From Alphaproteobacteria bacterium (GTDB lineage Bacteria; Pseudomonadota; Alphaproteobacteria; Acetobacterales; Acetobacteraceae): 52,193 nt of DNA. The position numbers were made by a program, and so were the translations under genes. Where the stretch lies: positions 1 through 52,193 of the forward strand of contig VGDL01000024.1 of assembly GCA_016869735.1 (NCBI GenBank), given 5' to 3'. The notes under the pieces were generated by a model. The model did no database searches and was not told where the DNA came from. It worked only from the letters and a program-made list of their open reading frames with translations. Each line of letters begins with the position of its first letter. Positions within the stretch are counted from its first letter, which is position 1. This document shows, piece after piece, positions 200 to 12,528 of this stretch.

Positions 200-2722
200 T
201 CACAGGCGACGGAATCGCGACAAAAGACGCTCCGCCGATTCACGCCCCACCAGCACTTCCTCGATCCTGGCAATTTCCTGCCTAGAAACAAAGCTGTTTT
301 CGGAGCGGAGCAACTTCCCCATCTGCGCGTGAAATTCTTCTTGAGCTGCAAGATACACTTGTTTGGACCCCAAGCGCCGGCCGATATCTTCAATCCTTCG
401 GGCGATGCGCGCCATCGCTTCGATCTCCTCCAAAGCATCGGATTGATCGGCCTGAATATCAAGAAGCGGTTGCGTTACATGCACTGTGACCAATTCGCGA
501 TAAGTGGTGCGGCAGAACTGATCAACGCTGCGGCGATGGGCCGGCAACTCGGACGTAATCTGTCTGGCATTGAGCCTTGGCAAGGTTTCCAGGGTTGACA
601 CCACGGCACCAATTTCAGACGCGATGCGCGTGCCCGTTTCAAAATCATCCTCCATCAGATTTGGTAATGTAGTCGTCACCCAGCCATTCAGGGTTTCTTC
701 GATAACGCCGGCTATTTGTGGCGTAAAATCCTTGTGAATGGTGAGGAGGATGGAGGGACGCAATGCGCGTTGCAATAAGGCGTTTAACGCGGCCGCGAAG
801 ACGAAGCGCCCTTCTTGCGCGGGGCCAGCCAGGGCCGAGCGCAATATGTCTGGGGAACAATTATCGCTTATCTGGCGCATGCCGTCCCAAAGGGGCGACG
901 CGTGGCGCCAGAGTGCGATTGCCAGTGAAACCATGGCATCGAAATCTCTTTTGGAGAAACCGGCAAGCGCCCATGAAGGTCCTGGTGAAATACTTGCTTT
1001 CGCTTCGGCGGCTACCTGCCACAGGCCTCGCCCGGCGCGATTGATCAATTTGGGGTCTTCGAGACTCCCGCCGCGTATTTCCAGTGCCAAGGCGTCGAGC
1101 TTCGGGCCAAGCGTAAGCTTTAGAGCTTCCATCAGCGGGCCGATGGCATTGCGCGGGATTTGCCCTTCCGTGCGGCGCCACTCGGCCGGATCAATCAATG
1201 CACCTGAAAGAGGCAGAAAGAGCAGGCGCATGAGGCTGGCAGGCCGTGGTGGGCGCAAGCGCTTGAGACGCGGCAAGGATGGTCCGAGCAGACGTTCGTG
1301 AATCTCTGAATTGGAAAGCCGGTCAACCAAGGAAACAATCTTGGCCAAAGCCTCATCTGATGCATTCCCGATCGATTCTCCCAAGCTGCGTGCCTCCGAA
1401 GCAACAGCGACCTTCGCCTGGACCTTTCCAGGAACTGCGGCAGTTTGACTTTCTTGGTCATTGCCCGTGGCGGATCCAGATGCTTGCCCCGGTTTGGTCA
1501 AGCGCCACCTTGTGGTTAGCTTTTCATCATCCGTAAATCGCGGTATCCGCAGCCGTGATCGTGAGTTTGACCGCTTGAGAGGCTTGATGTGGTTTTCATA
1601 AGTTATCGAAAAACTGATAAGGTTTTCATTGCGCGCGACAAGTTCCGTCACGTCACCGCTGCGCCAATCGGCTTTGTCCCGCACTACCTGTGTGGTCTGG
1701 CGCAGGGATTCACCCGCTTCTTTTGATTTCGGCAGCCATGCTTTCGCCTCACGCGGCAGGATGGGCGCGATCAATGCCATTTCCCATATCGCCGCGTTAC
1801 GTTGGCTTGGTTCCGCAGCACCCCATAAAGCCATGGGGGTTTTCCACCCATCCATAACCCAATCAGGCCCGCGGGCGCATTCCAGGATATTCTCCCATTC
1901 GTTGCGCCATTCGGGCACCAGAAGCCCCAAATCGCCAATAAGGTTATCGGCTGCTGTCAAGGCGATTGTTGCGCATTGAATCGTTTGGCGTGCGGTCTGC
2001 TGCACGAAGTTTGCTGCCTGGAACTGGGTACTGTCACGCGGTTGACCCGCTACCCAAGCTGCAATCTCATCGGTCATGCGGTTCAGGCTTTCCAGCATTT
2101 GCCGAAGCCGGGCATCCTCCAAACCAATTTTTGGCGTTGTCCCACTCAAAGCGTTGGACAAATCATCAAGGTCTGCTGCGAATCTCGACAGTGGTTGACC
2201 CGAAATTTTTGCTGACCGCGCTATGGCGCGTTCCGCGCGCTTGAGAAATTCCTCCTCATCCGGATCACTGCTGCGCCCCGCTGCCTCAGCGCTCGTTTCC
2301 ACTGCTGCGATAAGGCTATCAAGCAGCATGGACTTGATGAGTCGCTGGCAAGAAACCTCTCGGCGTTGGGCATCCTTCGCGGCCAAAGCGGCTCTCCGCC
2401 CGGCAAGGCCTTGCGCCGCCAGGCGTTGGGCTTCGTGCCGAATGCCGATCGGCGAGATATCAGTTGCCTGGCCCAGGATTTCCCATAATTGGCGATCAAA
2501 AAGTGTTGGAGAGCAGATTTCGGTCATCATTGACCAGGGCAGGATCAGCATGCCGCGCCCGCCCGAGGGATTGATCGCGACCAATTCCAGGCTTTGTCCA
2601 GAGGTGGATCGGCGAATACGAGCATTGAGCAACAAAGGTGTCGTGAAAGGCACAGTGGCGCCCCTTTCACGAAAGCTCGCAGGCTCGAAAAGTGCCGACC
2701 TGAACCGGTCAAGATCGGACAA
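200..2722 (-). CDS. Large protein of unknown function (840 aa)
   Basis: I do not recognise this protein. It has no signal peptide, no obvious transmembrane segment, and no Walker, HD, DDE or other catalytic motif I can name. It is rich in Ala, Leu, Arg and Glu and looks mostly helical and soluble. A variable, Ser/Gln/Ala-rich linker lies near residues 410-445, separating an N-terminal half from a C-terminal half. The first codon is TTG (2722-2720); a TAA lies in frame eight codons upstream. A better start may be GTG at 2653 (817 aa), which has AAAGGGG about seven bases before it. Codon choice looks less GC-rich than in the housekeeping genes of the window, which fits an accessory gene. The call as a real gene rests on length, continuity and codon pattern only. 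Confidence 0.7.
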   Translation of the reverse strand: MSDLDRFRSALFEPASFRERGATVPFTTPLLLNARIRRSTSGQSLELVAINPSGGRGMLILPWSMMTEICSPTLFDRQLWEILGQATDISPIGIRHEAQRLAAQGLAGRRAALAAKDAQRREVSCQRLIKSMLLDSLIAAVETSAEAAGRSSDPDEEEFLKRAERAIARSAKISGQPLSRFAADLDDLSNALSGTTPKIGLEDARLRQMLESLNRMTDEIAAWVAGQPRDSTQFQAANFVQQTARQTIQCATIALTAADNLIGDLGLLVPEWRNEWENILECARGPDWVMDGWKTPMALWGAAEPSQRNAAIWEMALIAPILPREAKAWLPKSKEAGESLRQTTQVVRDKADWRSGDVTELVARNENLISFSITYENHIKPLKRSNSRSRLRIPRFTDDEKLTTRWRLTKPGQASGSATGNDQESQTAAVPGKVQAKVAVASEARSLGESIGNASDEALAKIVSLVDRLSNSEIHERLLGPSLPRLKRLRPPRPASLMRLLFLPLSGALIDPAEWRRTEGQIPRNAIGPLMEALKLTLGPKLDALALEIRGGSLEDPKLINRAGRGLWQVAAEAKASISPGPSWALAGFSKRDFDAMVSLAIALWRHASPLWDGMRQISDNCSPDILRSALAGPAQEGRFVFAAALNALLQRALRPSILLTIHKDFTPQIAGVIEETLNGWVTTTLPNLMEDDFETGTRIASEIGAVVSTLETLPRLNARQITSELPAHRRSVDQFCRTTYRELVTVHVTQPLLDIQADQSDALEEIEAMARIARRIEDIGRRLGSKQVYLAAQEEFHAQMGKLLRSENSFVSRQEIARIEEVLVGRESAERLLSRFRRL

Positions 2723-2907: not shown

Positions 2908-3846
2908 TCAAATGATGCGAAACATTAAAGTGTCATTATTCGTAATTCGCCGGCAATTTTCCGCCGCCAGACCGAAGGATCGGGTAAAAGTCCCGGTTGA
3001 AAGCCAAGCCACATGGGGCGCCAGCACCACATTGGGCAAGACGAGCAGCGGGTCCGCGGGGTCCACCGGCTCAGCGGCAAAAACATCCAGCCCGGCTGCC
3101 GCCAAATGGCCGGATTGCAGCGCTGCCACCAGGGCCGGCTGATCCACCAGGCCGCCGCGGGCCGTATTCACCAGCACCGCGCCTCGCTTCATGCGGGCAA
3201 GTGCCGCTTTATTCATCAGGCCACGCGTTTTGGGTGACTCCGGGACATGGAGCGAGATCACATCCGCTTCCGCCAAAAGCGCCTCCAAAGGGCGAAATGC
3301 GCCAATCGCCTCGGGCTTCGGGCCGCGGGCAGTATATAAAACCTCACACCCCATGGCCTGCAAAACGGGGGCAAGTAGTTTCGGCACCGCACCATAGCCA
3401 ACCAAACCCACCTTGCGCCCGCCCAGTTCGAAAAGCCCATCCTGCAGGGCCGGGGGCTGAGACCAGCCGCGCCCGGCGCGGGTCTCGGCATCAAAATAGG
3501 CAATGCGCCTAAGCGCACCCAGCATCAGCAGCAGCGTCATTTCCGCGACCGCCCGGCTATTGGTGCCCGGCAAATTGCACACCGCAATGCCGCGCGCGCG
3601 GGCGGCCTCCAAATCAATCGTGTTCACGCCGACGCCAATTTTCTGGATCAGGCGCAGCTTGGGCGCGGCGGCGATATCGGCGGCGGTGATGGGGCGCAGC
3701 ACATGCCAAATCACCTCAACCTCCGGCAGCAGGCGCGCATAAAGCGCCGTATCGGCTTCCGGGCAGATGGTCAGGTCAATGCCGGGCAGCGCGGCCAACT
3801 GCGCCGCCAGCCCAGGCCCTGCGTCATAATGCAGCAGCACCTTCAT
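2908..3846 (-). CDS. D-isomer-specific 2-hydroxyacid dehydrogenase
   Basis: This NAD(P)-dependent oxidoreductase of the PGDH/hydroxypyruvate reductase family (312 aa, usual length) interconverts a 2-hydroxyacid and a 2-ketoacid in the cytosol. The catalytic triad is visible: Arg230 in NTARGGLVD, Glu259 in FAAEPVD and His278 in LAPHVAW. The nucleotide-binding loop is unusual: where GxGxxG is expected it reads GYGAVP (150-155), with proline for the last glycine. The start is ATG 3846, which overlaps the TGA of the enolase-like gene (ATGA), so translation is probably coupled; a longer reading into that gene (from 3930) is not needed. It is the last gene of a four-gene operon. The substrate is unknown; hydroxypyruvate/glycerate is one candidate given the kinase and enolase-like neighbours. 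Confidence 0.9.
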   Translation of the reverse strand: MKVLLHYDAGPGLAAQLAALPGIDLTICPEADTALYARLLPEVEVIWHVLRPITAADIAAAPKLRLIQKIGVGVNTIDLEAARARGIAVCNLPGTNSRAVAEMTLLLMLGALRRIAYFDAETRAGRGWSQPPALQDGLFELGGRKVGLVGYGAVPKLLAPVLQAMGCEVLYTARGPKPEAIGAFRPLEALLAEADVISLHVPESPKTRGLMNKAALARMKRGAVLVNTARGGLVDQPALVAALQSGHLAAAGLDVFAAEPVDPADPLLVLPNVVLAPHVAWLSTGTFTRSFGLAAENCRRITNNDTLMFRII

Positions 3847-5132
3847 GGCCGGGACCGCCCAAGATAGGCGCCGCCGGCAAAGCGCGCCCTGGCACCCAGG
3901 CTTTCTTCCACGCGCAAGGCTTCGTTCCATTTCGCCATGCGTTCAGACCGGGCGAAGGAGCCGACTTTCAATTGCCCGACACCCCAACCCATGGCCAGAT
4001 GCACAATGGTGACATCCTCGGTCTCACCGGAGCGGGCGCTGACAATGCCGGCGAAGCCCACGTCACGCGCGGCATCCCAAGCGGCTTTGGCCTCCGTCAG
4101 TGTGCCGCGCTGGTTCGGTTTGATCAGCACGGTATTGGCCGCACCGATCGCGGCGGCGCGGCGCACGCGCGCAGCATCCGTCACCAGGAAATCATCGCCC
4201 ACCACTTGGATGCGCCCGCCCACTTCGCGGGTGAAGGCGCTAAAGCCCGCCGCGTCATCTTCCGCCAGCGGGTCTTCGATGGAAGCGATTGGATAGGCAG
4301 CGATCCAGCCAAGCAACATGCGGATCATCTTATCCGTGCCGAGTTCGCGGCCTTCCAAACCGAGCTTGTAACGCCCGCCCTTGCCGAAATCCGTCGCGGC
4401 AATATCAAGCGCAATCGTCACTTGCTGTCCCGGCGCGAAACCCGCTTTTTCGATGGCGGCAACGAGGGTTTCCAAAGCCTGTTCATTGGCGGTGAAAGCA
4501 GGCCACCAGCCACCTTCATCGGCCACACCTTGCAGCAGGCCGCGTTGCTTCATGATGGCGCCGGCGGCGCGATAGACCTCAGCGGTCCAATCCAAAGCCT
4601 CGGCAAAGCTGGTGGCGGCCGGGCACATCACCAGAAAATCCTGGATATCCACGCGCCGCCCGGCATGGGCACCACCGCCCAGAATCTGGATTTGCGGCAG
4701 CGGCAAAACATCCGGCGCATCACGGCCCAAGTAGCGCCACAACGGCAAACCTTCTGCTGCCGCAGCGGCGTGGGCAGCGGCCATTGAAACCGCGAGTGTC
4801 GCATTGGCGCCCAGGCGCGTTTTTTGCGGCGTGCCATCGCGCGCGATCAAGCACGCATCCAGCGCCGCTTGCGCGCGCGCATCCATGCCAAGCAGCGCCG
4901 GGGCCAATTCGCGGTTCACGGCATCCACCGCACCTGTCACGTCATAACCGCCAAAGGCGCTGCCGCCATCGCGCTTGTCCAAAGCCTCACCACTGCCGGT
5001 GCTCGCACCAGCGGGGGCAATGGCGCGGCCTGTCGCACCGCCGGCCAGGGTGATTTCCGCCTCCACCGTGGGCCGGCCTCGGCTATCCCAAACGCGGCGG
5101 CCACGAATGGCGGTGATGATGGTGCTGCTCAT
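3843..5132 (-). CDS. Enolase-superfamily protein with altered active site (enolase-like)
   Basis: The protein (429 aa) aligns with phosphopyruvate hydratase over its full length: GASTG loop (42-46), ADEGG with Glu206 (yeast E211), metal ligands Asp243, Glu286 and Asp313, Lys338 (yeast K345, general base), and GQLKVG with Lys389 (K396). Two near-invariant residues differ. The histidine of SHRSGETED (yeast H373) is alanine (Ala366, codon 4037-4035), and the glutamate of the LQEF/IQEF motif (E168) is aspartate (Asp165). The set of retained metal and phosphate ligands suggests a phosphorylated hydroxyacid is still bound, but it may not be 2-phosphoglycerate, or activity may be low. ATGA overlaps join it to the kinase gene upstream and the dehydrogenase gene downstream. 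A housekeeping eno presumably exists elsewhere in the genome. Automatic annotation would call this 'enolase'; I treat that as family only. Confidence 0.88.
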   Translation of the reverse strand: MSSTIITAIRGRRVWDSRGRPTVEAEITLAGGATGRAIAPAGASTGSGEALDKRDGGSAFGGYDVTGAVDAVNRELAPALLGMDARAQAALDACLIARDGTPQKTRLGANATLAVSMAAAHAAAAAEGLPLWRYLGRDAPDVLPLPQIQILGGGAHAGRRVDIQDFLVMCPAATSFAEALDWTAEVYRAAGAIMKQRGLLQGVADEGGWWPAFTANEQALETLVAAIEKAGFAPGQQVTIALDIAATDFGKGGRYKLGLEGRELGTDKMIRMLLGWIAAYPIASIEDPLAEDDAAGFSAFTREVGGRIQVVGDDFLVTDAARVRRAAAIGAANTVLIKPNQRGTLTEAKAAWDAARDVGFAGIVSARSGETEDVTIVHLAMGWGVGQLKVGSFARSERMAKWNEALRVEESLGARARFAGGAYLGRSRP

Positions 5133-6139
5133 GCGCCGATTTCTTCCCCCCAGGCCGCGCGCACCGCCAACAGGCGATCCACGGGCTTGGTCAATAAGGC
5201 GCGCGCCACGCGGCGCACGCGGTTTTTGTCATGTTCTTCGGTCAGGTATTCGACCGGGCTTTTACCGTCCACCCGCGCCAGAAAAAGCCCCGGCAGCAGC
5301 CGCGCCGCGCGCGCTTCCAGCGCATCCGCCGCTTCCCAGGTGATGCCAGCCAGATAACGCGCCGCCAGCGCTTCAAAGCACGCCATGAAGCCGGCGCTGA
5401 CCTGCGGTGTCCACAAGCATTTCAGCAAAAGATGATTGAGGCAAAAGGCAAGATCAAAAGCCGGGTCGCCCCACCAGGCGCATTCAGCGTCCAGAAACAC
5501 AGGGCCTGATGGTCCGCAAAGGATATTCTTCGGGCTGACATCTCCATGCACCAGCGTGCGCTTACTGCGCGCCGTGACCGCCGCGATGTCTTGCAATAGC
5601 GTTGCCAAATCCGGATGCACGCGCGCGGTCGCCAGCAGATAAGGTTCCAGCCGAATGGCATGAAAAATCTCATCTGTTGGGAAAGCTTCCGCCAAGCCTG
5701 GCTGAGCCGCGGCATGCGCATGAATGGCAGCAATGCGCCGCCCAACCTCAGCGGCGAAAGCCACATCCGCGTGGCCATCACGCAGCCGCGCTTTCCAGAC
5801 CGGGTGATCCGTGGGCGAAAGGAACGCCATGGCCAGCGCGCCTGTTGCCTCATCTTGGCCGAGCAGTTTTGGCACCGCGCCAGGGATCGCGCGATCCGCT
5901 GCCAAAAGCCAGCGCGCTTCATAAATGTTGCGCACCACCGGCGCGCGCCAATCGGCGGCAACCTTCAGCTTGGGCAAAGCGCGCTTGACGCAAATTTCCT
6001 GCCCATCGGGCAGGGTTAGATGCCAGATATCGGATGAAACGCCACCTGCCAGGGCCTCACCCCGCACATGCTGCCCAGGCGCAAGCAACCCCATGGCAGC
6101 AAGCCCGGCGGCAATGGCTTCCGGTATGGGCTCCAGCAT
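5129..6139 (-). CDS. APH-fold small-molecule kinase (aminoglycoside phosphotransferase family)
   Basis: This 336-aa protein of the protein-kinase-like APH/choline kinase/MtnK group transfers the ATP gamma-phosphate to a small alcohol. Visible motifs are the N-lobe lysine in EICVKRAL, the catalytic Brenner loop VHGDVSPKNIL, and the metal-binding segment FLDAECAWWGDPAFDLA. No membrane segment or signal peptide is seen. The ATG at 6139 lies 3 bases after the receptor gene stop, and its own stop overlaps the enolase-like start. Its position between an uptake receptor and an enolase-like protein suggests that it phosphorylates an imported hydroxy acid or sugar acid rather than an antibiotic. That is inference; the family alone does not give the substrate. 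Confidence 0.85.
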   Translation of the reverse strand: MLEPIPEAIAAGLAAMGLLAPGQHVRGEALAGGVSSDIWHLTLPDGQEICVKRALPKLKVAADWRAPVVRNIYEARWLLAADRAIPGAVPKLLGQDEATGALAMAFLSPTDHPVWKARLRDGHADVAFAAEVGRRIAAIHAHAAAQPGLAEAFPTDEIFHAIRLEPYLLATARVHPDLATLLQDIAAVTARSKRTLVHGDVSPKNILCGPSGPVFLDAECAWWGDPAFDLAFCLNHLLLKCLWTPQVSAGFMACFEALAARYLAGITWEAADALEARAARLLPGLFLARVDGKSPVEYLTEEHDKNRVRRVARALLTKPVDRLLAVRAAWGEEIGA

Positions 6140-6142
6140 CGC

Positions 6143-7084
6143 TCAGCGCTTCAGCAGCGCTTCCCAGCGCGTCACTTCGCCGGCCAGATAGGCCTCGCTT
6201 TGTGCGACATTCAGGCTGAGAATGCGATCTGCCCCAAGATCACCCAAGCGCTTGCGCAAGCCTTCCTGACCAAGCGCGCGATTGATCGCGGCATTCAGCA
6301 CGTCCCGCCTGTCACGCGGTGTCGCGCTTGGCACGAAAACCGCCTGCCAGACACTCATTTCCACATCCACGCCGCCTTCGCGCCAGGTGGGCACATCGGG
6401 GTTGGCGGCGTTGCGTTGTGCGGTGGTCACGGCAAAGGCACGCGCCTGATTGCCGCGCGCGGTCTGGAACCCGGTAAGGCCGGCATCGAACATCATGGCA
6501 ATGCGCCCGGCGGCAAGGTCAAGCGTGGCGGGCGCGCCACCGCGATAGGGCACTTCATTCAACTGCAAGCCGGTTGCCTTTAGATAAAGCAGCGCTGCCA
6601 GCTGCAAAATGCCGCCCCCGCCGGAGCTGCCGTAATCCAATTGGCCGGGCCGCGCCTGGGCCAAGGCGGTGAATTCGCGCAGATTATTGGCCGGTACGTT
6701 ATTCGCCACCAGCATAACGATGGGTGATTCCGCCACCACCGCTATCGCCTGCAAGCTGGTAATGGGATCGATCGGCTGATTGGGCACCAGCACCCGCAAG
6801 GCCGCATGGCCCGTATTGTTGAACAGCACCGTATGGCCATCGGCTGTAGCGCGCGCCACGACTTCGGCCCCCACCATCCCGCCGGCGCCGCCGCGGTTTT
6901 CGATGACAAGCGGTTGCGGCAGGATCGGCGCCATGGCCTCTGCAAGCACGCGCGCAACCACATCGGTCGCCCCACCAGCCGCATAGGGCACGATCACGCG
7001 AATGGGCCTTTCGGGATAGGCGCTGGCGGGCATAAAGGGTGCCAAAACCAGCATGAAACAGCAGAGCATCAGGCGCAGCAGCAT
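6143..7084 (-). CDS. Tripartite tricarboxylate transporter (TTT) substrate-binding protein, Bug family
   Basis: This periplasmic receptor (313 aa) belongs to the TctC/Bug family, which bind small carboxylates and deliver them to TctAB-type permeases. A Sec signal peptide covers residues 1-21 and ends in ASA. The mature start YPERPIRVIVPYAAGGATD is the family hallmark, followed by VIENRGGAGG and the 'NNTGHAA' ligand region. The ATG at 7084 was chosen because AAGGGGGAAAA lies directly upstream; longer readings to 7177 lack support. It is the first gene of the receptor-kinase-enolase-like-dehydrogenase operon. No TctA or TctB is present in the window, so the membrane component must be encoded elsewhere, as is common for Bug proteins. 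Confidence 0.9.
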   Translation of the reverse strand: MLLRLMLCCFMLVLAPFMPASAYPERPIRVIVPYAAGGATDVVARVLAEAMAPILPQPLVIENRGGAGGMVGAEVVARATADGHTVLFNNTGHAALRVLVPNQPIDPITSLQAIAVVAESPIVMLVANNVPANNLREFTALAQARPGQLDYGSSGGGGILQLAALLYLKATGLQLNEVPYRGGAPATLDLAAGRIAMMFDAGLTGFQTARGNQARAFAVTTAQRNAANPDVPTWREGGVDVEMSVWQAVFVPSATPRDRRDVLNAAINRALGQEGLRKRLGDLGADRILSLNVAQSEAYLAGEVTRWEALLKR

Positions 7085-7217: not shown

Positions 7218-8186
7218 ATGGCCGAAGAAGACTGGGATATTCCTGAGCATTTGCAGCCCGACCCGACGGAGCATGGCTTCGACCTGGATCAGGCCTATCG
7301 CGCGGTGGTCGGCTTGCGGAGCCAGGTGCCGCCGGATGCCTTCACCGCGCGGGTGCTCGGCACGGAACGCGAAGGCAGCGGCGTGCTGATCGGCGATGGG
7401 CTGGTGCTGACCGTGGGCTATCTGGTGAGTGAGGCTGAGACGATCTGGATCACCACCGCCGAAGGTCGCGCCGTGGCGGGCCATACCCTCGCGGTGGATC
7501 AGGAAACCGGCTTCGCCCTGGTGCAGGCATTGGGCCAGATTCCTCTGAAGCCGTCGGCACTGGGGGATAGCGAAAAACTGAAAATCGGCGCCGCGACGGT
7601 GATGGCGGCTGCCGGTGGGCGCGCTCAGGCGGTGGCGGGCAAGCTTGTCGCGCGCCAGCCCTTCGCTGGCTATTGGGAATATTTGATGGAGGATGCGCTT
7701 TTCATCGCCCCCGCACACCCATCCTGGGGCGGTGCTGGGGTATTCGGCCCGGATGGCAGGCTGGTCGGCATCGGGTCCCTGATTTTGCAGCAGGGGGAGG
7801 AAGGGCGCCGGTTTGATCTTAATATGGTGATCCCGGTGCATCAATTGACGCCTGTTTTGGATGAACTGACCACGCAAGGCCGCCGCCCCGGCCCGCCGCG
7901 CCCCTGGCTTGGGCTTTACGCGACCGAGGATGAGGATGGCATTTCAGTGGCCTCCCTTGCCCCCAATGGTCCGGCTGAAGCGGCGGGCCTGCGCAATGGG
8001 GACCGCATTCTGGCGGTAGAAGGCGCCGAAATTGGCGAATTGGCCGATTTATGGCGCGCGATTTGGGCGATTGGCCCAGCGGGCAGCAATGTGCAATTGC
8101 AGGTGAGCCGAGGCAAGGCGCGGCGGGATGTGACGATCACCTCGGCTGATCGGGTGCAATACCTGAAGCGGCCGCGCTTGCATTGA
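7218..8186 (+). CDS. Catalytically inactive HtrA/DegP-like protein with one PDZ domain
   Basis: This 322-aa protein keeps the trypsin-like S1C fold and a C-terminal PDZ domain (about 228-308) but has lost all three catalytic residues. The His of TNxHVV is Tyr68 (TVGYLV), the Asp of DPRTDLA is Gly98 (DQETGFA), and the GNSGG serine is replaced in PSWGGAG (Gly171). Flanking framework motifs survive (GSGVLIGDGLVLT, ALGDSEKLKIG, GRLVGIGS), so it is a true homologue and not a misread. There is no signal peptide, which suggests a cytoplasmic location, unlike DegP. A start at 7218 gives MAEEDWDIP; ATG 7203 is an alternative five codons longer. It probably acts as a scaffold or peptide-binding protein. 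The cupin gene follows 11 bases after the stop, suggesting co-transcription. Confidence 0.85.
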   Translation: MAEEDWDIPEHLQPDPTEHGFDLDQAYRAVVGLRSQVPPDAFTARVLGTEREGSGVLIGDGLVLTVGYLVSEAETIWITTAEGRAVAGHTLAVDQETGFALVQALGQIPLKPSALGDSEKLKIGAATVMAAAGGRAQAVAGKLVARQPFAGYWEYLMEDALFIAPAHPSWGGAGVFGPDGRLVGIGSLILQQGEEGRRFDLNMVIPVHQLTPVLDELTTQGRRPGPPRPWLGLYATEDEDGISVASLAPNGPAEAAGLRNGDRILAVEGAEIGELADLWRAIWAIGPAGSNVQLQVSRGKARRDVTITSADRVQYLKRPRLH

Positions 8187-8197
8187 AAGGTTCGCCC

Positions 8198-8761
8198 ATG
8201 TCCGGTTCCGGTGGTTTTGTCCTTATTCCGCCGGGTGGCGGGGCGCAGCATTGGCAGCCGCAACCCGCCAATGGCTGGATTGAGGTACTGACCTCTCCGC
8301 GCATCGCCGGGATGCCGGCGGGCTTTTCGGCGGGGCTTCAGGAATTGCCGCCGCTTGGCAAAATCCGCGAACACTCCCACCCGGCCCAGACCGAAATTTT
8401 CTGGGTGGTGGCCGGGGAGGCGCTGGGGCGGCTGGATGGTATGGTGCGGCGCATCCCGACCGGCAGCTTCATGGTCGCACCCCCCCATATCCGTCATGGC
8501 TTCATCAATGACGGTGCAGATCCCTTCCGGTTTTTGTGGCTGCTGATCCCAGCGGGGCTTGAGGATTTTTTCATTGGCATTGGCCGGCCCAAGGCACCAG
8601 GTGCGCCGGACCCAACGCCTTATCCACGCCCGGCCGATGCCGGAAATATCGAACTCTCAACGGTTTTTGAGACGCTCGACCCACCCCCGCCCCCGCCCTG
8701 GGATACCAGCCCCATCACCGATCCGGCGGTATTGGAAACGCTGCGGCAACAGGCTTTGTAA
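8198..8761 (+). CDS. Single-domain cupin protein
   Basis: This small beta-barrel protein (187 aa) has both cupin motifs. Motif 1 has metal ligands His59, His61 and Glu66 within GKIREHSHPAQTEIFWVVAG; motif 2, GSFMVAPPHIRHGFIN, supplies His100. It could be a metal-dependent oxygenase, isomerase or sensor; the sequence does not decide. The C-terminal 50 residues are rich in Pro and outside the barrel. ATG 8198 is preceded by AAAGG seven bases upstream and is preferred over a TTG at 8183 that would overlap the previous gene. It follows the pseudo-HtrA gene closely. Confidence 0.85.
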   Translation: MSGSGGFVLIPPGGGAQHWQPQPANGWIEVLTSPRIAGMPAGFSAGLQELPPLGKIREHSHPAQTEIFWVVAGEALGRLDGMVRRIPTGSFMVAPPHIRHGFINDGADPFRFLWLLIPAGLEDFFIGIGRPKAPGAPDPTPYPRPADAGNIELSTVFETLDPPPPPPWDTSPITDPAVLETLRQQAL

Positions 8762-8852
8762 AATCCCCGCTTGCAGTAGGGCGCGGTTGCGTGAAGGATC
8801 ATCCCTGAAAGGTCGGCACCGAAGCCGCCCACAAAAAGGGAGAGTCCAGAAG

Positions 8853-10190
8853 ATGGCCAATCAGATCACGCGCCGCCAGGCGCTTGGCGCAACTGCTGCT
8901 TTGCTCGGCGCGCCAGCCTTTGTGCGGCAAGCCAATGCGCAAAGCCGCTTCGATTGGAAGCGCTTTGCCGGTGAACGCATTGAAGTCACGCTGCAAACAT
9001 CGCCGCGCGGCTTGTTGTTGCAACGCCAGAACAAGGAATTCGAAGACCTGACCGGCATTCGCTGCGGCATTGAAGTGGTGCCGGAACAGCAGCATCGCCA
9101 GAAAATCATCGTGGAATATGCCTCTGGCCGGCCTTCCTTTGATGTGGCGGAACTCAGCTTGCATGTGAATAAGCGGCAAGTCGGCAAGGCGAAATGGAAC
9201 ACCGACATCAAGGCACTGATCGCGGATACTTCCATCACCGCGCCGGATTTTGACTTCGCAGATTTCGGCGCGGGCATGGTGCAATATGCGACGCAATCCG
9301 ATGGCCGGATGGATTCGCTGCCGGCCTTCGCGGATTACTTCATTCTCTACTACAACAAGGAATTGCTGGCGGCCAAAAATATCGCTGTGCCGACCACCTG
9401 GGATGGCATGTACGAAGCCGCCAAGGCGCTGACCGATCCTTCACGCCAGATTTATGGCCATGTCGGGCGCGGCCTGAAGAACGCCAATGTTGTCTTGTGG
9501 TCCAGCTATCTGCTTGGCACTGCGCAGCGCGATATGATCAACGCCAACCGGCAATTGATCACCGATACGGATGACGCTGTCTGGGCTGGGGAGATGTACA
9601 AGAAATTCCTGCGCGATGTCTCACCGCCCGGATCCATCGGCTTCAACTGGAATGAATGCCAAACCACCTTCATGCAGGGCCGTGCGGCCATGTGGGTTGA
9701 CGGCATTGGCTTCGCGGCGCCGCTGGAAGATCGGCAACGTTCCCGCGTGGCGGGCAAGGTTGGCTATGCGTTGGTGCCGAAGGGGCGTGGGCCCAACCAT
9801 CATTGCTGCCTGTTCGGCGCGGGTTATGGCATTCCAGAAGCATCGCGCAAAAAGGGGCCGGCCTGGCTTTATCTTCAATGGGCGCTTGGCAAGGCAAATC
9901 AGCTTCGCATGCTGACCAGCGGTGCCGGCGTGCCGGCGCGCAGCAGCCCCTTTGGCAATGAACAGGCGATTGCTTCCAGCACCTTCCCGCGCGAATTTTT
10001 CAACTCGCTCAATGAAAGTGCCAAGATTGCGCGCGCCGGTCTGCCCGAGATTGTGCCAGTGACGCAGTTCCGTGACGTGATCGGCACGGCTTTGACCAAT
10101 ACCATCAGCGGTTCGGATGTGGCGACGGAACTCCGCCGTGCCACCGCTGAATTCCGCCCGATTCTTGAACAAAGCGAAAGGGAAAGCTGA
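8853..10190 (+). CDS. ABC transporter substrate-binding protein, sugar type (family 1), Tat signal
   Basis: This periplasmic binding protein (445 aa) belongs to the MalE/UgpB-like extracellular solute-binding family 1. The N-terminus ITRRQALGATAALLG followed by a cleavage region near ANAQ is a twin-arginine signal. Mid-protein motifs such as DYFILYYNKELLAAKNI and TTWDGMYEAAKALTD are typical of carbohydrate-type receptors. A strong AAAAAGGGAGAG lies 8-20 bases before ATG 8853, which decides this start over readings from 8559. Two MalF/MalG-type permease genes follow. The nearby amidohydrolase hints that the cargo could be an amide or N-acyl compound and not a plain sugar; this is inference. 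Confidence 0.9.
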   Translation: MANQITRRQALGATAALLGAPAFVRQANAQSRFDWKRFAGERIEVTLQTSPRGLLLQRQNKEFEDLTGIRCGIEVVPEQQHRQKIIVEYASGRPSFDVAELSLHVNKRQVGKAKWNTDIKALIADTSITAPDFDFADFGAGMVQYATQSDGRMDSLPAFADYFILYYNKELLAAKNIAVPTTWDGMYEAAKALTDPSRQIYGHVGRGLKNANVVLWSSYLLGTAQRDMINANRQLITDTDDAVWAGEMYKKFLRDVSPPGSIGFNWNECQTTFMQGRAAMWVDGIGFAAPLEDRQRSRVAGKVGYALVPKGRGPNHHCCLFGAGYGIPEASRKKGPAWLYLQWALGKANQLRMLTSGAGVPARSSPFGNEQAIASSTFPREFFNSLNESAKIARAGLPEIVPVTQFRDVIGTALTNTISGSDVATELRRATAEFRPILEQSERES

Positions 10191-10205
10191 GGCTTTCGCA
10201 ACTTG

Positions 10206-11117
10206 ATGCAGCAGGCTGAAACCATCACCGCGTCCCCGAGCAAGGCGGCGCGGGCGCGCAATTACGCCCGGCATTATGGCTGGTTCATCGTCCCCGCGGC
10301 GGTGGTGGTGCTTGCCGTCATCATCTTTCCCTGGATCTTTACCATTTATGTCTCCGCCCATGATTGGCATCTGGGCGGAGAGCGGCGTTGGGTCGGCTTC
10401 GATAACTACATCAAGCTATTCACCGATTCCCGCTTCGGCTGGGCCATGCTGCGCACGCTATTCTATACGGTATTGGCCGTGGTGTTTCCGATGATTTTGG
10501 GGCTGGCAGCAGCTTTGGCCTTTAATCGCAAATTTCCGTTGCGCGGCCTGGCGCGGACCATCTTCATCCTGCCCATGATGGCAACGCCGGTGGCGGTGGC
10601 GCTGGTGTGGACCATGACCTTCCACCCGCAGCTTGGCGTGCTGAATTGGCTTTTGGGTCAAGTGGGTCTGCCCTCCAGCATGTGGATCTATAGCGCGAAT
10701 ACCGTCATCCCGACTTTGGTGATGATTGAGATCTGGCATTGGACACCCTTGGTGATGCTGCTGATCCTGGGCGGCCTCGCTTCCTTGCCGATTGATCCTT
10801 ATGAGGCCGCGAAGATTGATGGCGCCAATGGCTGGCAGGCCTTTCGCCACATCACCCTGCCCTTGCTGATGCCCTTTATCGTGGTGGCACTGATCATCCG
10901 CTGTATTGATGCGCTGAAGGCGTTTGACACGATTTACGTGATCACCCAGGGCGGGCCTGGTTCGGCCAGTGAGACGATCAATATCTTTCTCTATCTGCAG
11001 GCCTTTGCGTTCTACAATGTCGGCTATGCCTCGGCCGTGGTGGTGGTGTTTTTCGCGATCATCCTGGCGCTGGCCGCGCTGCTGTTATGGACGCGTCAGC
11101 GGGTGAAAATGAAATGA
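10206..11117 (+). CDS. ABC transporter permease, MalF/UgpA-like
   Basis: This inner-membrane permease (303 aa) has about six transmembrane helices, the first near residues 24-46 (WFIVPAAVVVLAVIIFPW). The coupling-helix EAA loop reads YEAAKIDGANGWQAFRHITLPLL, with the conserved G. It pairs with the next gene to form the channel of a binding-protein-dependent importer. ATG 10206 is preferred; a TTG at 10203 precedes it. Its last codons overlap the next start in ATGA (11114-11117), so the two permeases are translationally coupled. Confidence 0.92.
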   Translation: MQQAETITASPSKAARARNYARHYGWFIVPAAVVVLAVIIFPWIFTIYVSAHDWHLGGERRWVGFDNYIKLFTDSRFGWAMLRTLFYTVLAVVFPMILGLAAALAFNRKFPLRGLARTIFILPMMATPVAVALVWTMTFHPQLGVLNWLLGQVGLPSSMWIYSANTVIPTLVMIEIWHWTPLVMLLILGGLASLPIDPYEAAKIDGANGWQAFRHITLPLLMPFIVVALIIRCIDALKAFDTIYVITQGGPGSASETINIFLYLQAFAFYNVGYASAVVVVFFAIILALAALLLWTRQRVKMK

Positions 11118-11971
11118 GTGTGGAAGCAAAACGCAGCCCCGCGCAGTATCGGCTGCGTCGGCTGATCGGCAATATCGGCTTTGGCTTTTCGGTGCTGGTG
11201 CTGGTTTCGCCGGCCATCCTGTTCTTCCTGTGGATGCTGTCGCTGTCCTTCAAGAATGAGCTGGACAATACCGATTGGCCGCCGGTCTTCATCCCGGAAT
11301 CACCGACACTGGATAATTACCGAGAGGTTTTCGCGCGCAATGATTTCCTGCGCTTTGCCTGGAATTCCATTGTCGTGTCCTTCGGCGCCACTGGGATTGC
11401 GCTGCTGATTGGCGTGCCGGCGGGCTATGGCATCGCCAAGATGCACGCGATGCGCGCCGCCGCCTTGATTTTGATTGCGCGCATCACGCCGGGGCTTTCC
11501 TATCTGATCCCGCTATTCCTGCTGTTCCAATGGCTTGGCATGACCGGCAGCCTGACACCCATTGTCATCACCCATTTGGTGATCACGGTGCCGATTGTGG
11601 TCTGGGTGATGATTTCCTTCTTTGAGGGCCTACCGCCGGAATTGGAAGAAGCGGCTTTGGTGGATGGTGCTACGATCTGGCAGGCGTTTCGCTATGTGGC
11701 AATGCCACTCGCGCGGCCTGGCATTACCGTTGCCACCATCCTGTCCTTCATTTTTTCCTGGAACAATTTCATCTTTGCCATGGTGCTGGCCGGGCGGGAA
11801 ACCCGCACCCTGCCGGTGGCGGTGAATAATATGCTGACCTTTGAGCAAATCGCCTGGGGGCCGCTGTCTGCGGCGGCATTATTGGTGACAGCGCCGGTGC
11901 TGATCCTGACGCTAGTCGCGCAAAAGCAGATTGTGGCCGGGCTGACGGCGGGGGGCGTGAAGGGCGCTTAA
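11114..11971 (+). CDS. ABC transporter permease, MalG/UgpE-like
   Basis: This is the second inner-membrane subunit (285 aa) of the importer. It has roughly six hydrophobic helices and the EAA loop EEAALVDGATIWQAFRYVAM. The start is the ATG within the ATGA overlap with the preceding permease. No ATP-binding subunit follows; the next gene is on the opposite strand. The importer must therefore borrow an ATPase encoded elsewhere, as MsmK-type systems do, or the ATPase gene has been separated or lost. Confidence 0.92.
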   Translation: MSVEAKRSPAQYRLRRLIGNIGFGFSVLVLVSPAILFFLWMLSLSFKNELDNTDWPPVFIPESPTLDNYREVFARNDFLRFAWNSIVVSFGATGIALLIGVPAGYGIAKMHAMRAAALILIARITPGLSYLIPLFLLFQWLGMTGSLTPIVITHLVITVPIVVWVMISFFEGLPPELEEAALVDGATIWQAFRYVAMPLARPGITVATILSFIFSWNNFIFAMVLAGRETRTLPVAVNNMLTFEQIAWGPLSAAALLVTAPVLILTLVAQKQIVAGLTAGGVKGA

Positions 11972-11979
11972 CCCTTCCA

Positions 11980-12528
11980 CTACTCCGCCGCCGCCTGATT
12001 ATGCGCCGCTGCATCAATCCCAAGCGCGCCCGTAAAGCGGTTGAAGAAGCCGCAGAGCGTAATGCGCAAGGTCAGTTCCACAATCTGCGCCTCGGAAAAA
12101 TGCTCCCGCAACGCGCGGAACAGCCGTTCGGGTACGCGGTGGCTTTTTTCCCAAGCAGCGACTGAATATTCCGCCACCAGCCGATCAATCGGCGTGAGCG
12201 ATGGGTGATCAATCCGCCCTGGCAGCCCTTCCAAAGCCTCGGTCGGGATGCCTTCCACGGCCAGAAATGGGCCGTGATGATCCACGCAATAATCGCAGGC
12301 ATTAAGCTTGGAGACGACCACAATCGCCAATTCCAGATAGCGCCGCGGCAGCGTCCCCGCCGCGCGCAATTCCATCAGCATCGGCATCAAATGGCGCAAA
12401 GCCGCCGGCACATGGGCAAAGATCGCCAATTGCTCCTCAAACGGGCCATAGCCGGCCACATAACGATGCCAGATATCGCGGAGTTCCGGTGTTAGTGCCT
12501 CGGGCGAGACTTCACGCACGCGGGCCAT
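11980..12528 (-). CDS. Carboxymuconolactone decarboxylase / AhpD-like family protein
   Basis: This 182-aa all-helical protein has the AhpD-type redox signature Glu66 - 11 residues - Cys78-Asp-Tyr-Cys81 - 3 residues - His85 (ELAIVVVSKLNACDYCVDHH). In the peroxidase-related branch these residues form a proton-relay and thiol peroxidase centre; in the decarboxylase branch the cysteines are absent, so a peroxidase or disulfide reductase role is more likely. AAAGGAAA precedes ATG 12528. It is divergent from the amidohydrolase gene (117-base spacer) and convergent with the permease gene, only 8 bases apart. Confidence 0.85.
   Translation of the reverse strand: MARVREVSPEALTPELRDIWHRYVAGYGPFEEQLAIFAHVPAALRHLMPMLMELRAAGTLPRRYLELAIVVVSKLNACDYCVDHHGPFLAVEGIPTEALEGLPGRIDHPSLTPIDRLVAEYSVAAWEKSHRVPERLFRALREHFSEAQIVELTLRITLCGFFNRFTGALGIDAAAHNQAAAE

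Follow-up and report, generated by a model that had tools for sequence, protein, structure and literature searches.

Enolase is generally treated as an enzyme of a single reaction, and the sugar-acid dehydratases of the MR_MLE and UxaA types act without phosphorylation of their substrates. Three classes of glycerate kinases were distinguished in 2007, none of which has the APH fold according to the accessible part of that account (PMC2063504), and the available portion of another article describes one glycerate kinase as GarK-like and makes no mention of enolase (PMC6365646). Here we describe a four-gene operon on the minus strand (positions 2908..7084) of a 52,193-nucleotide stretch from an Acetobacteraceae bacterium (contig VGDL01000024.1; the whole stretch is hereafter termed the window). 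The operon encodes a carboxylate receptor of the tripartite tricarboxylate transporter (TTT) type, an APH-fold kinase, an enolase homologue with an altered active site and a D-2-hydroxyacid dehydrogenase. At its core is a conserved module of just the kinase and enolase-homologue genes, which occurs across at least three bacterial phyla. With about even confidence, we propose that the two enzymes would form a phosphorylation-dehydration module converting a (2R)-2,3-dihydroxy acid other than D-glycerate to an enol phosphate. No description of the pair or its pathway was found in the open-access full-text literature, judged mostly by title or abstract and partly with strict queries.

Conservation of the kinase-enolase pair

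Relatives' loci were taken as the best 80 of at least 484 related stretches in GTDB genomes. In 65 of them the kinase gene has the same orientation as the enolase-like gene and is no more than 150 bp away, in nine it is farther off in the same locus, and in six it is not visible. Four of these six end at contig edges, the uncut ones being L103 and L104; when the genomes of L103, L104, L105 and five others were searched, the kinase was found in all eight. The two reading frames overlap by four bases in 53 of the 80 loci, which together with the frequent adjacency points to an operon arrangement beyond chance. Among 200 Acetobacteraceae genomes (cut-offs of 1e-20 and 1e-130), both genes are present in 43, the kinase alone in three and neither in 154, and no genome has the enolase-like gene without the kinase, in agreement with the original prediction that the two belong together. 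The kinase-only genomes are G041 (41% identity), G193 (a contig-edge fragment) and G148.

The pair was also found in Betaproteobacteria, in Actinomycetota and on one Bacteroidota plasmid (Persicobacter). Among 15 actinobacterial loci found via the kinase, 13 have an enolase homologue within about 105 bp, whereas it lies 945 bp off in one of the remaining two and several kb off in the other; these pairs extend to kinase identities as low as 29%. The original prediction named a lack of joint conservation of the four genes in relatives as grounds for refutation, and this applies in part: the kinase usually adjoins, whereas the reductase type varies and the receptor is mostly absent.

Active site and phylogeny of the enolase homologue

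Alignment to solved enolases revealed three replacements in the window homologue, D165 for E168, A366 for H373 and V390 for T397, the enolase positions being given in yeast numbering. The protein keeps D243, E286, D313, K338, E206, S44, H156, R367, S368 and K389, a set comprising the three metal ligands, the K345 base, the E211 acid and the phosphate and carboxylate residues expected of an enolase, and lacks the conserved E168 and H373 by which membership is also judged. As far as sequence can tell, it belongs to the enolase family, but two defining positions of its active site are altered, and together with its context this speaks against classing it as a phosphopyruvate hydratase.

Over all loci fetched, sites 168 and 373 are occupied by D and A in 167 cases, by E and H in 47 and by D and G in one, counts that are not independent because the loci overlap; three alignments stop before the second site. 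Aspartate and alanine are found in every kinase-linked copy with both sites aligned, down to 42% identity and including copies from Rhodococcus, small-genome actinobacteria and Persicobacter, which favours the earlier suggestion that the enolase changes reflect a related but different substrate. The exception is L116, a locus on an Enterobacter plasmid, whose enolase-like protein (36% identity) differs at further catalytic positions too. Position 390 is valine where covered, with isoleucine in L168 and L196 (one genome) and in L116. Residue statistics at 165, 366 and 390 from one row set picked by those letters are circular, and the remaining alignments list matches without such selection.

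Among the matches listed for 299 genomes of the phylum, identities to the window homologue are bimodal, with its own sequence at 100%, six proteins at 56-69% and the rest at or below 49%; ordinary enolases share about 43-50% with it. A tree of 46 homologues, 25 ordinary enolases and the L116 protein separated the groups by one branch with a Shimodaira-Hasegawa-like approximate likelihood ratio test (SH-aLRT) value of 100, and a second tree of 41 homologues and 47 ordinary enolases, including actinobacterial and same-genome copies, gave the same one-branch split (SH-aLRT 99). Both trees were made by a quick method and without bootstrapping, some of their branches are long and some compositions unusual, and their family sequences (46 and 41) were hand-picked for spread from at least 159, alignments under 340-360 residues being dropped. 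The predicted model of the homologue has a predicted local distance difference test score of 90, with residues 154-159 below 50. Binding of a second carboxylate, as in tartrate, via R342 was considered and dropped, since other members have A, Q, S, C, V, I or N at position 342.

Ordinary enolases and the glycerate route

The window's genome also has an ordinary enolase, so that the objection foreseen in the original prediction, an operon copy that is the only eno of its genome, does not apply. An ordinary enolase was likewise found in all 21 other carrier genomes checked (above 410 bits to Enolase_C, as in the window's genome), and the 22 ordinary enolase loci from those genomes carry E, H and T at the diagnostic positions. 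This distribution argues for a specialised role of the second copy.

It also bears on the pathway first put forward for the operon, hydroxypyruvate to D-glycerate to D-2-phosphoglycerate to phosphoenolpyruvate (PEP), in which the kinase would be a new APH-fold glycerate 2-kinase, the enolase homologue merely divergent and the whole a segment resembling the serine cycle. A reductase, a kinase and an enolase do occur together, and in rhizobial plasmids a PEP carboxylase gene stands next to them. The latter was found in the cluster of four rhizobial loci (L113, L114, L120 and L126), and in G498 no PEP carboxylase was found besides the cluster copy; of 121 genomes sampled from that family, 10 have the enzyme. 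However, a second enolase would be needless if the kinase made D-2-phosphoglycerate, since the ordinary enzyme is already present. The window's genome moreover has a MOFRL-type glycerate kinase (G000:C34), whereas the operon kinase matches only APH in Pfam, with no match to the MOFRL family; E168 and H373 are changed throughout the kinase-linked copies aligned over both sites, L116 apart; and only two of the seven rhizobial carriers have a PEP carboxylase. We therefore regard this route as quite unlikely. PEP carboxylase as a general partner of the module was dropped on the same count, and its presence is taken as lineage-specific evidence.

In a stereochemical variant, the kinase product would be 2-phospho-L-glycerate, and the altered enolase would dehydrate this enantiomer to PEP, which would account for both the second enolase and the PEP carboxylase neighbour. 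FAH-type genes, present in 10 of the 80 loci, speak in its favour, because glycerate would be among the products of FAH-type hydrolases that act on six-carbon 2,4-diketo acids. The lysine base, however, is on the face used for D-2-phosphoglycerate, and D-2-hydroxyacid dehydrogenases and ApbA/PanE reductases make (R)-hydroxy acids, giving the D form; this variant thus appears unlikely.

Operon layout and genomic neighbourhoods

The four genes of the operon (Table 1), whose coordinates were checked on the window contig (G000:C24), are joined by a 3-base gap between receptor and kinase and by ATGA overlaps at the kinase/enolase-like (5132-5129) and enolase-like/dehydrogenase (3846-3843) junctions. 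This layout was correctly anticipated, and the Pfam assignments agree with the four families originally named. Among the NCBIfam models, TIGR01060 identifies the third product as eno (cut-off 300 bits); neither the kinase nor the dehydrogenase scored above the cut-off of any equivalog, and for the receptor there was no NCBIfam match at all.

Table 1. Features of the window considered in this study
Feature	Coordinates	Strand	Supporting match
TctC/Bug-type periplasmic carboxylate receptor	6143..7084	-	Pfam TctC 8e-51
APH-clan small-molecule kinase	5129..6139	-	Pfam APH 1.6e-14
Enolase homologue, altered active site	3843..5132	-	Enolase_N/Enolase_C 4e-46/9e-83; TIGR01060 463.8 bits
D-2-hydroxyacid dehydrogenase	2908..3846	-	2-Hacid_dh/2-Hacid_dh_C 7e-23/2e-52, over cut-off
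Cupin, part of divergent block 8183..11971	8183-8761	+	Pfam Cupin_2
Carbohydrate-type ABC transporter solute-binding protein (open reading frame)	8559-10190	+	Pfam SBP_bac_1
Two permeases of the divergent block	10203-11117 and 11087-11971	+	Pfam BPD_transp_1
Small CMD/AhpD-family protein	11980-12528	-	
840-aa protein downstream of the operon	200-2722	-	No Pfam match

The best NCBIfam match of the window dehydrogenase is PRK06487 (193 vs 448 bits), and we propose that it reduces a 2-keto acid to a (2R)-2-hydroxy acid. In the 74 relatives' loci with a kinase, the reductase next to the pair is a D-2-hydroxyacid dehydrogenase in 40 and an ApbA/PanE-like protein, the Burkholderiales form, in 16, while 18 have neither. 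The association of a carboxylate receptor with the pair recurs, yet most loci lack it: any TctC gene within 400 bp was found in nine of the 80. Four of these (L034, L036, L038 and L039) carry the same receptor as the window (89-94% identity), and five (L061, L065, L077, L082 and L085) a distant one (29-32%), which is on the opposite strand in four; the close relatives L035, L037 and L040 end at a contig edge before the receptor position. TctC genes are numerous at some loci (L065 has several), and part of this adjacency may be due to chance. Searches with Paracoccus TctA and TctB found neither component in the window.

Divergent to the operon is a block of a cupin and a sugar ATP-binding cassette (ABC) transporter, a possible import partner through a functional link that we infer. 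A carbohydrate-type solute-binding protein gene is similarly divergent in seven of the 80 relatives' loci, most of which also have the cupin and the permeases. The CMD/AhpD-family protein encoded beside this transporter shares 26% identity with the CMD protein of a kinase-enolase-carrying cluster. In L034-L039 the operon is followed by two or three relatives of the 840-aa protein arranged in tandem, with lengths of about 844, 811 and 576 aa.

Four loci from small-genome actinobacteria (L183, L184, L194 and L195) show the order solute-binding protein, two permeases, kinase and enolase homologue, and L183, the only one of the four scanned, has an L-arabinose isomerase gene upstream. Such sugar ABC operons ending in the pair could suggest that the kinase acts on a sugar or a sugar-like hemiacetal, as 5-methylthioribose (MTR) kinases do, with the enolase homologue serving in a structural or moonlighting capacity instead of catalysing the next step; MTR kinases are indeed the closest solved structures. 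However, the homologue retains all residues for a 2-phospho acid substrate, and the 4-base overlap couples both genes in most loci, which makes this explanation very unlikely.

Other lineages place the pair among different genes. On Paracoccus and Roseibium plasmids, the kinase and enolase homologue are followed, in this order, by an FAH hydrolase, a short-chain dehydrogenase/reductase (SDR) and a sugar ABC transporter, and TTT genes lie upstream; the Paracoccus FAH hydrolase is nearest to 2,4-didehydro-3-deoxy-L-rhamnonate hydrolase, below the cut-off (352 vs 500 bits). A gluconolactonase-type and an MR_MLE protein are encoded near the pair in L191, and a galactarate/altronate-type dehydratase and an FAH-type protein in L109. 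A larger set, found in nine of the 80 loci, comprises a VOC protein near HpaD, a CMD protein, a zinc alcohol dehydrogenase and an FAH hydrolase, together with a cupin in eight; these loci belong to Burkholderia, Paraburkholderia, Trinickia, Variovorax, Rhizobium and Streptomyces, with counterparts in two Rhodococcus plasmids. Sugar ABC transporters, FAH-type hydrolases, a lactonase and sugar-acid dehydratase families as neighbours point to a context of sugar-acid catabolism.

Further gene sets were observed around some copies. In the Acetobacteraceae locus L058 (1277-5364), genes for an M81/MlrC metallopeptidase, a D-serine-dehydratase-like and a SelA/beta-eliminating-lyase-like protein stand beside the kinase-enolase-reductase operon, and L051 and L054 have clustered relatives of all three. 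On the Enterobacter chuandaensis plasmid pE20191216 (L116, complement 8208-9479 and 9878-10933), the very divergent enolase-like open reading frame, annotated as hypothetical, is accompanied on the opposite strand by a divergent kinase relative (39-40% identity). After this kinase gene come U32, aminotransferase, iron-containing redox, nucleotidyltransferase and major facilitator superfamily genes, and the set looks like a biosynthetic cluster reusing the kinase-enolase pair. An SDR, a U32-like protein, a class I/II aminotransferase and an FAH-type protein are encoded close to the pair in L186 and L187 from small-genome actinobacteria, in part like the Enterobacter cluster.

Proposed reaction

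We infer the phosphorylation site, the stereochemistry and the order of the reactions as follows. The precursor would be imported by the receptor here and by sugar ABC, TTT or tripartite ATP-independent periplasmic transporters elsewhere, and in lineages needing such supply the adjacent reductase would convert a 2-keto acid to the (2R)-2-hydroxy acid. The kinase would then phosphorylate the 2-hydroxyl of a (2R)-2,3-dihydroxy acid, most likely a sugar acid of four or more carbons, after which the retained lysine of the enolase homologue would take the C2 proton and the C3 hydroxyl would be expelled. This would yield a 3-deoxy-2-keto acid as its enol phosphate, or a compound similar to PEP.

Retention of the phosphate, carboxylate, metal and base residues suggests a 2-phospho acid substrate and ordinary C2 chemistry, and the occurrence of a kinase-paired second enolase in genomes already holding the ordinary enzyme suggests that the kinase product is not a substrate of the latter. 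The changed residues would be located at the point of departure of the C3 hydroxyl, and the altered C3 pocket would suit a sugar acid of four or more carbons. In the accessible part of a study of the Mycobacterium tuberculosis enzyme (PMC10619443), a role in handling the C3 water is proposed for E163 (equivalent to E168) and E204 (equivalent to E211), and the alanine mutants are non-functional, S42A excepted; a search of the available text gave no mention of H363, which our own alignment equates with H373.

One alternative assumes a leaving group other than the hydroxyl, e.g., sulfite expelled from a 2-phospho-3-substituted lactate to give PEP. It would draw on the same two changed residues, both probably near the leaving hydroxyl, in the case of E168 according to the M. 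tuberculosis study (PMC10619443). Among the neighbours annotated or scanned, which are a sample only, there was no gene for sulfite export or oxidation, and we consider this alternative highly improbable.

Several points weigh against the proposed phosphorylation and dehydration of a longer acid. Genome G148 has only the kinase, at 63% identity and away from a contig edge. No recognised reductase adjoins the pair in 18 of the 74 loci, and the neighbourhoods vary by lineage, so that the module may serve several substrates. The PEP carboxylase of the four rhizobial clusters favours PEP as the product and hence a C3 substrate. The placement of H373 near the leaving group is an assumption. Finally, the available text of the M. 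tuberculosis study lists E163 also among the substrate-carboxylate contacts, and the E163 mutant it tested carries alanine, not aspartate (PMC10619443).

More broadly, and with somewhat less than even confidence, we suggest that specialised enolases across phyla, together with a dedicated APH-fold 2-hydroxyacid kinase, may carry out a phosphorylative dehydration of sugar acids with four or more carbons, a strategy that to our knowledge is not represented among the sugar-acid dehydratases. The second copies are annotated as eno, and a kinase-coupled subgroup with fixed active-site changes would mean that they are misassigned in metabolic models. The module also offers a new reaction that can be tested, in which water is removed from a phosphorylated acid different from 2-phosphoglycerate, and the identity of its substrate would put a name to a catabolic route whose carriers include plasmids of root-nodule bacteria.

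Comparison with known systems

The operon kinase shares its fold with 5-methylthioribose kinase (MtnK), but is only 16-17% identical to it, scores 49.6 bits against the NCBIfam MTRK cut-off of 275 and has different gene partners; we propose that it is a 2-hydroxyacid 2-kinase. With the glycerate kinases of classes I, II (MOFRL) and III it would have in common the phosphorylation of a 2,3-dihydroxy acid, although these families are unrelated to it. The proposed net result, a sugar acid that has lost its C3 hydroxyl, resembles the outcome of the MR_MLE and UxaA-type dehydratases, whereas here a true enolase would need a kinase. The serine-cycle segment of hydroxypyruvate reductase, glycerate kinase, enolase and PEP carboxylase has its enzyme types brought together in rhizobial plasmids, but here the kinase belongs to a different family and the active site of the enolase is altered. 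Finally, the enolase homologue shares with enolase (phosphopyruvate hydratase, TIGR01060) the fold, the equivalents of the metal ligands, and K345, E211, H159, S39, R374, S375 and K396. It differs in having D for E168, A for H373 and V for T397, in its pairing with a kinase, in its separate branch of the tree and in being the second copy in the 22 genomes checked.

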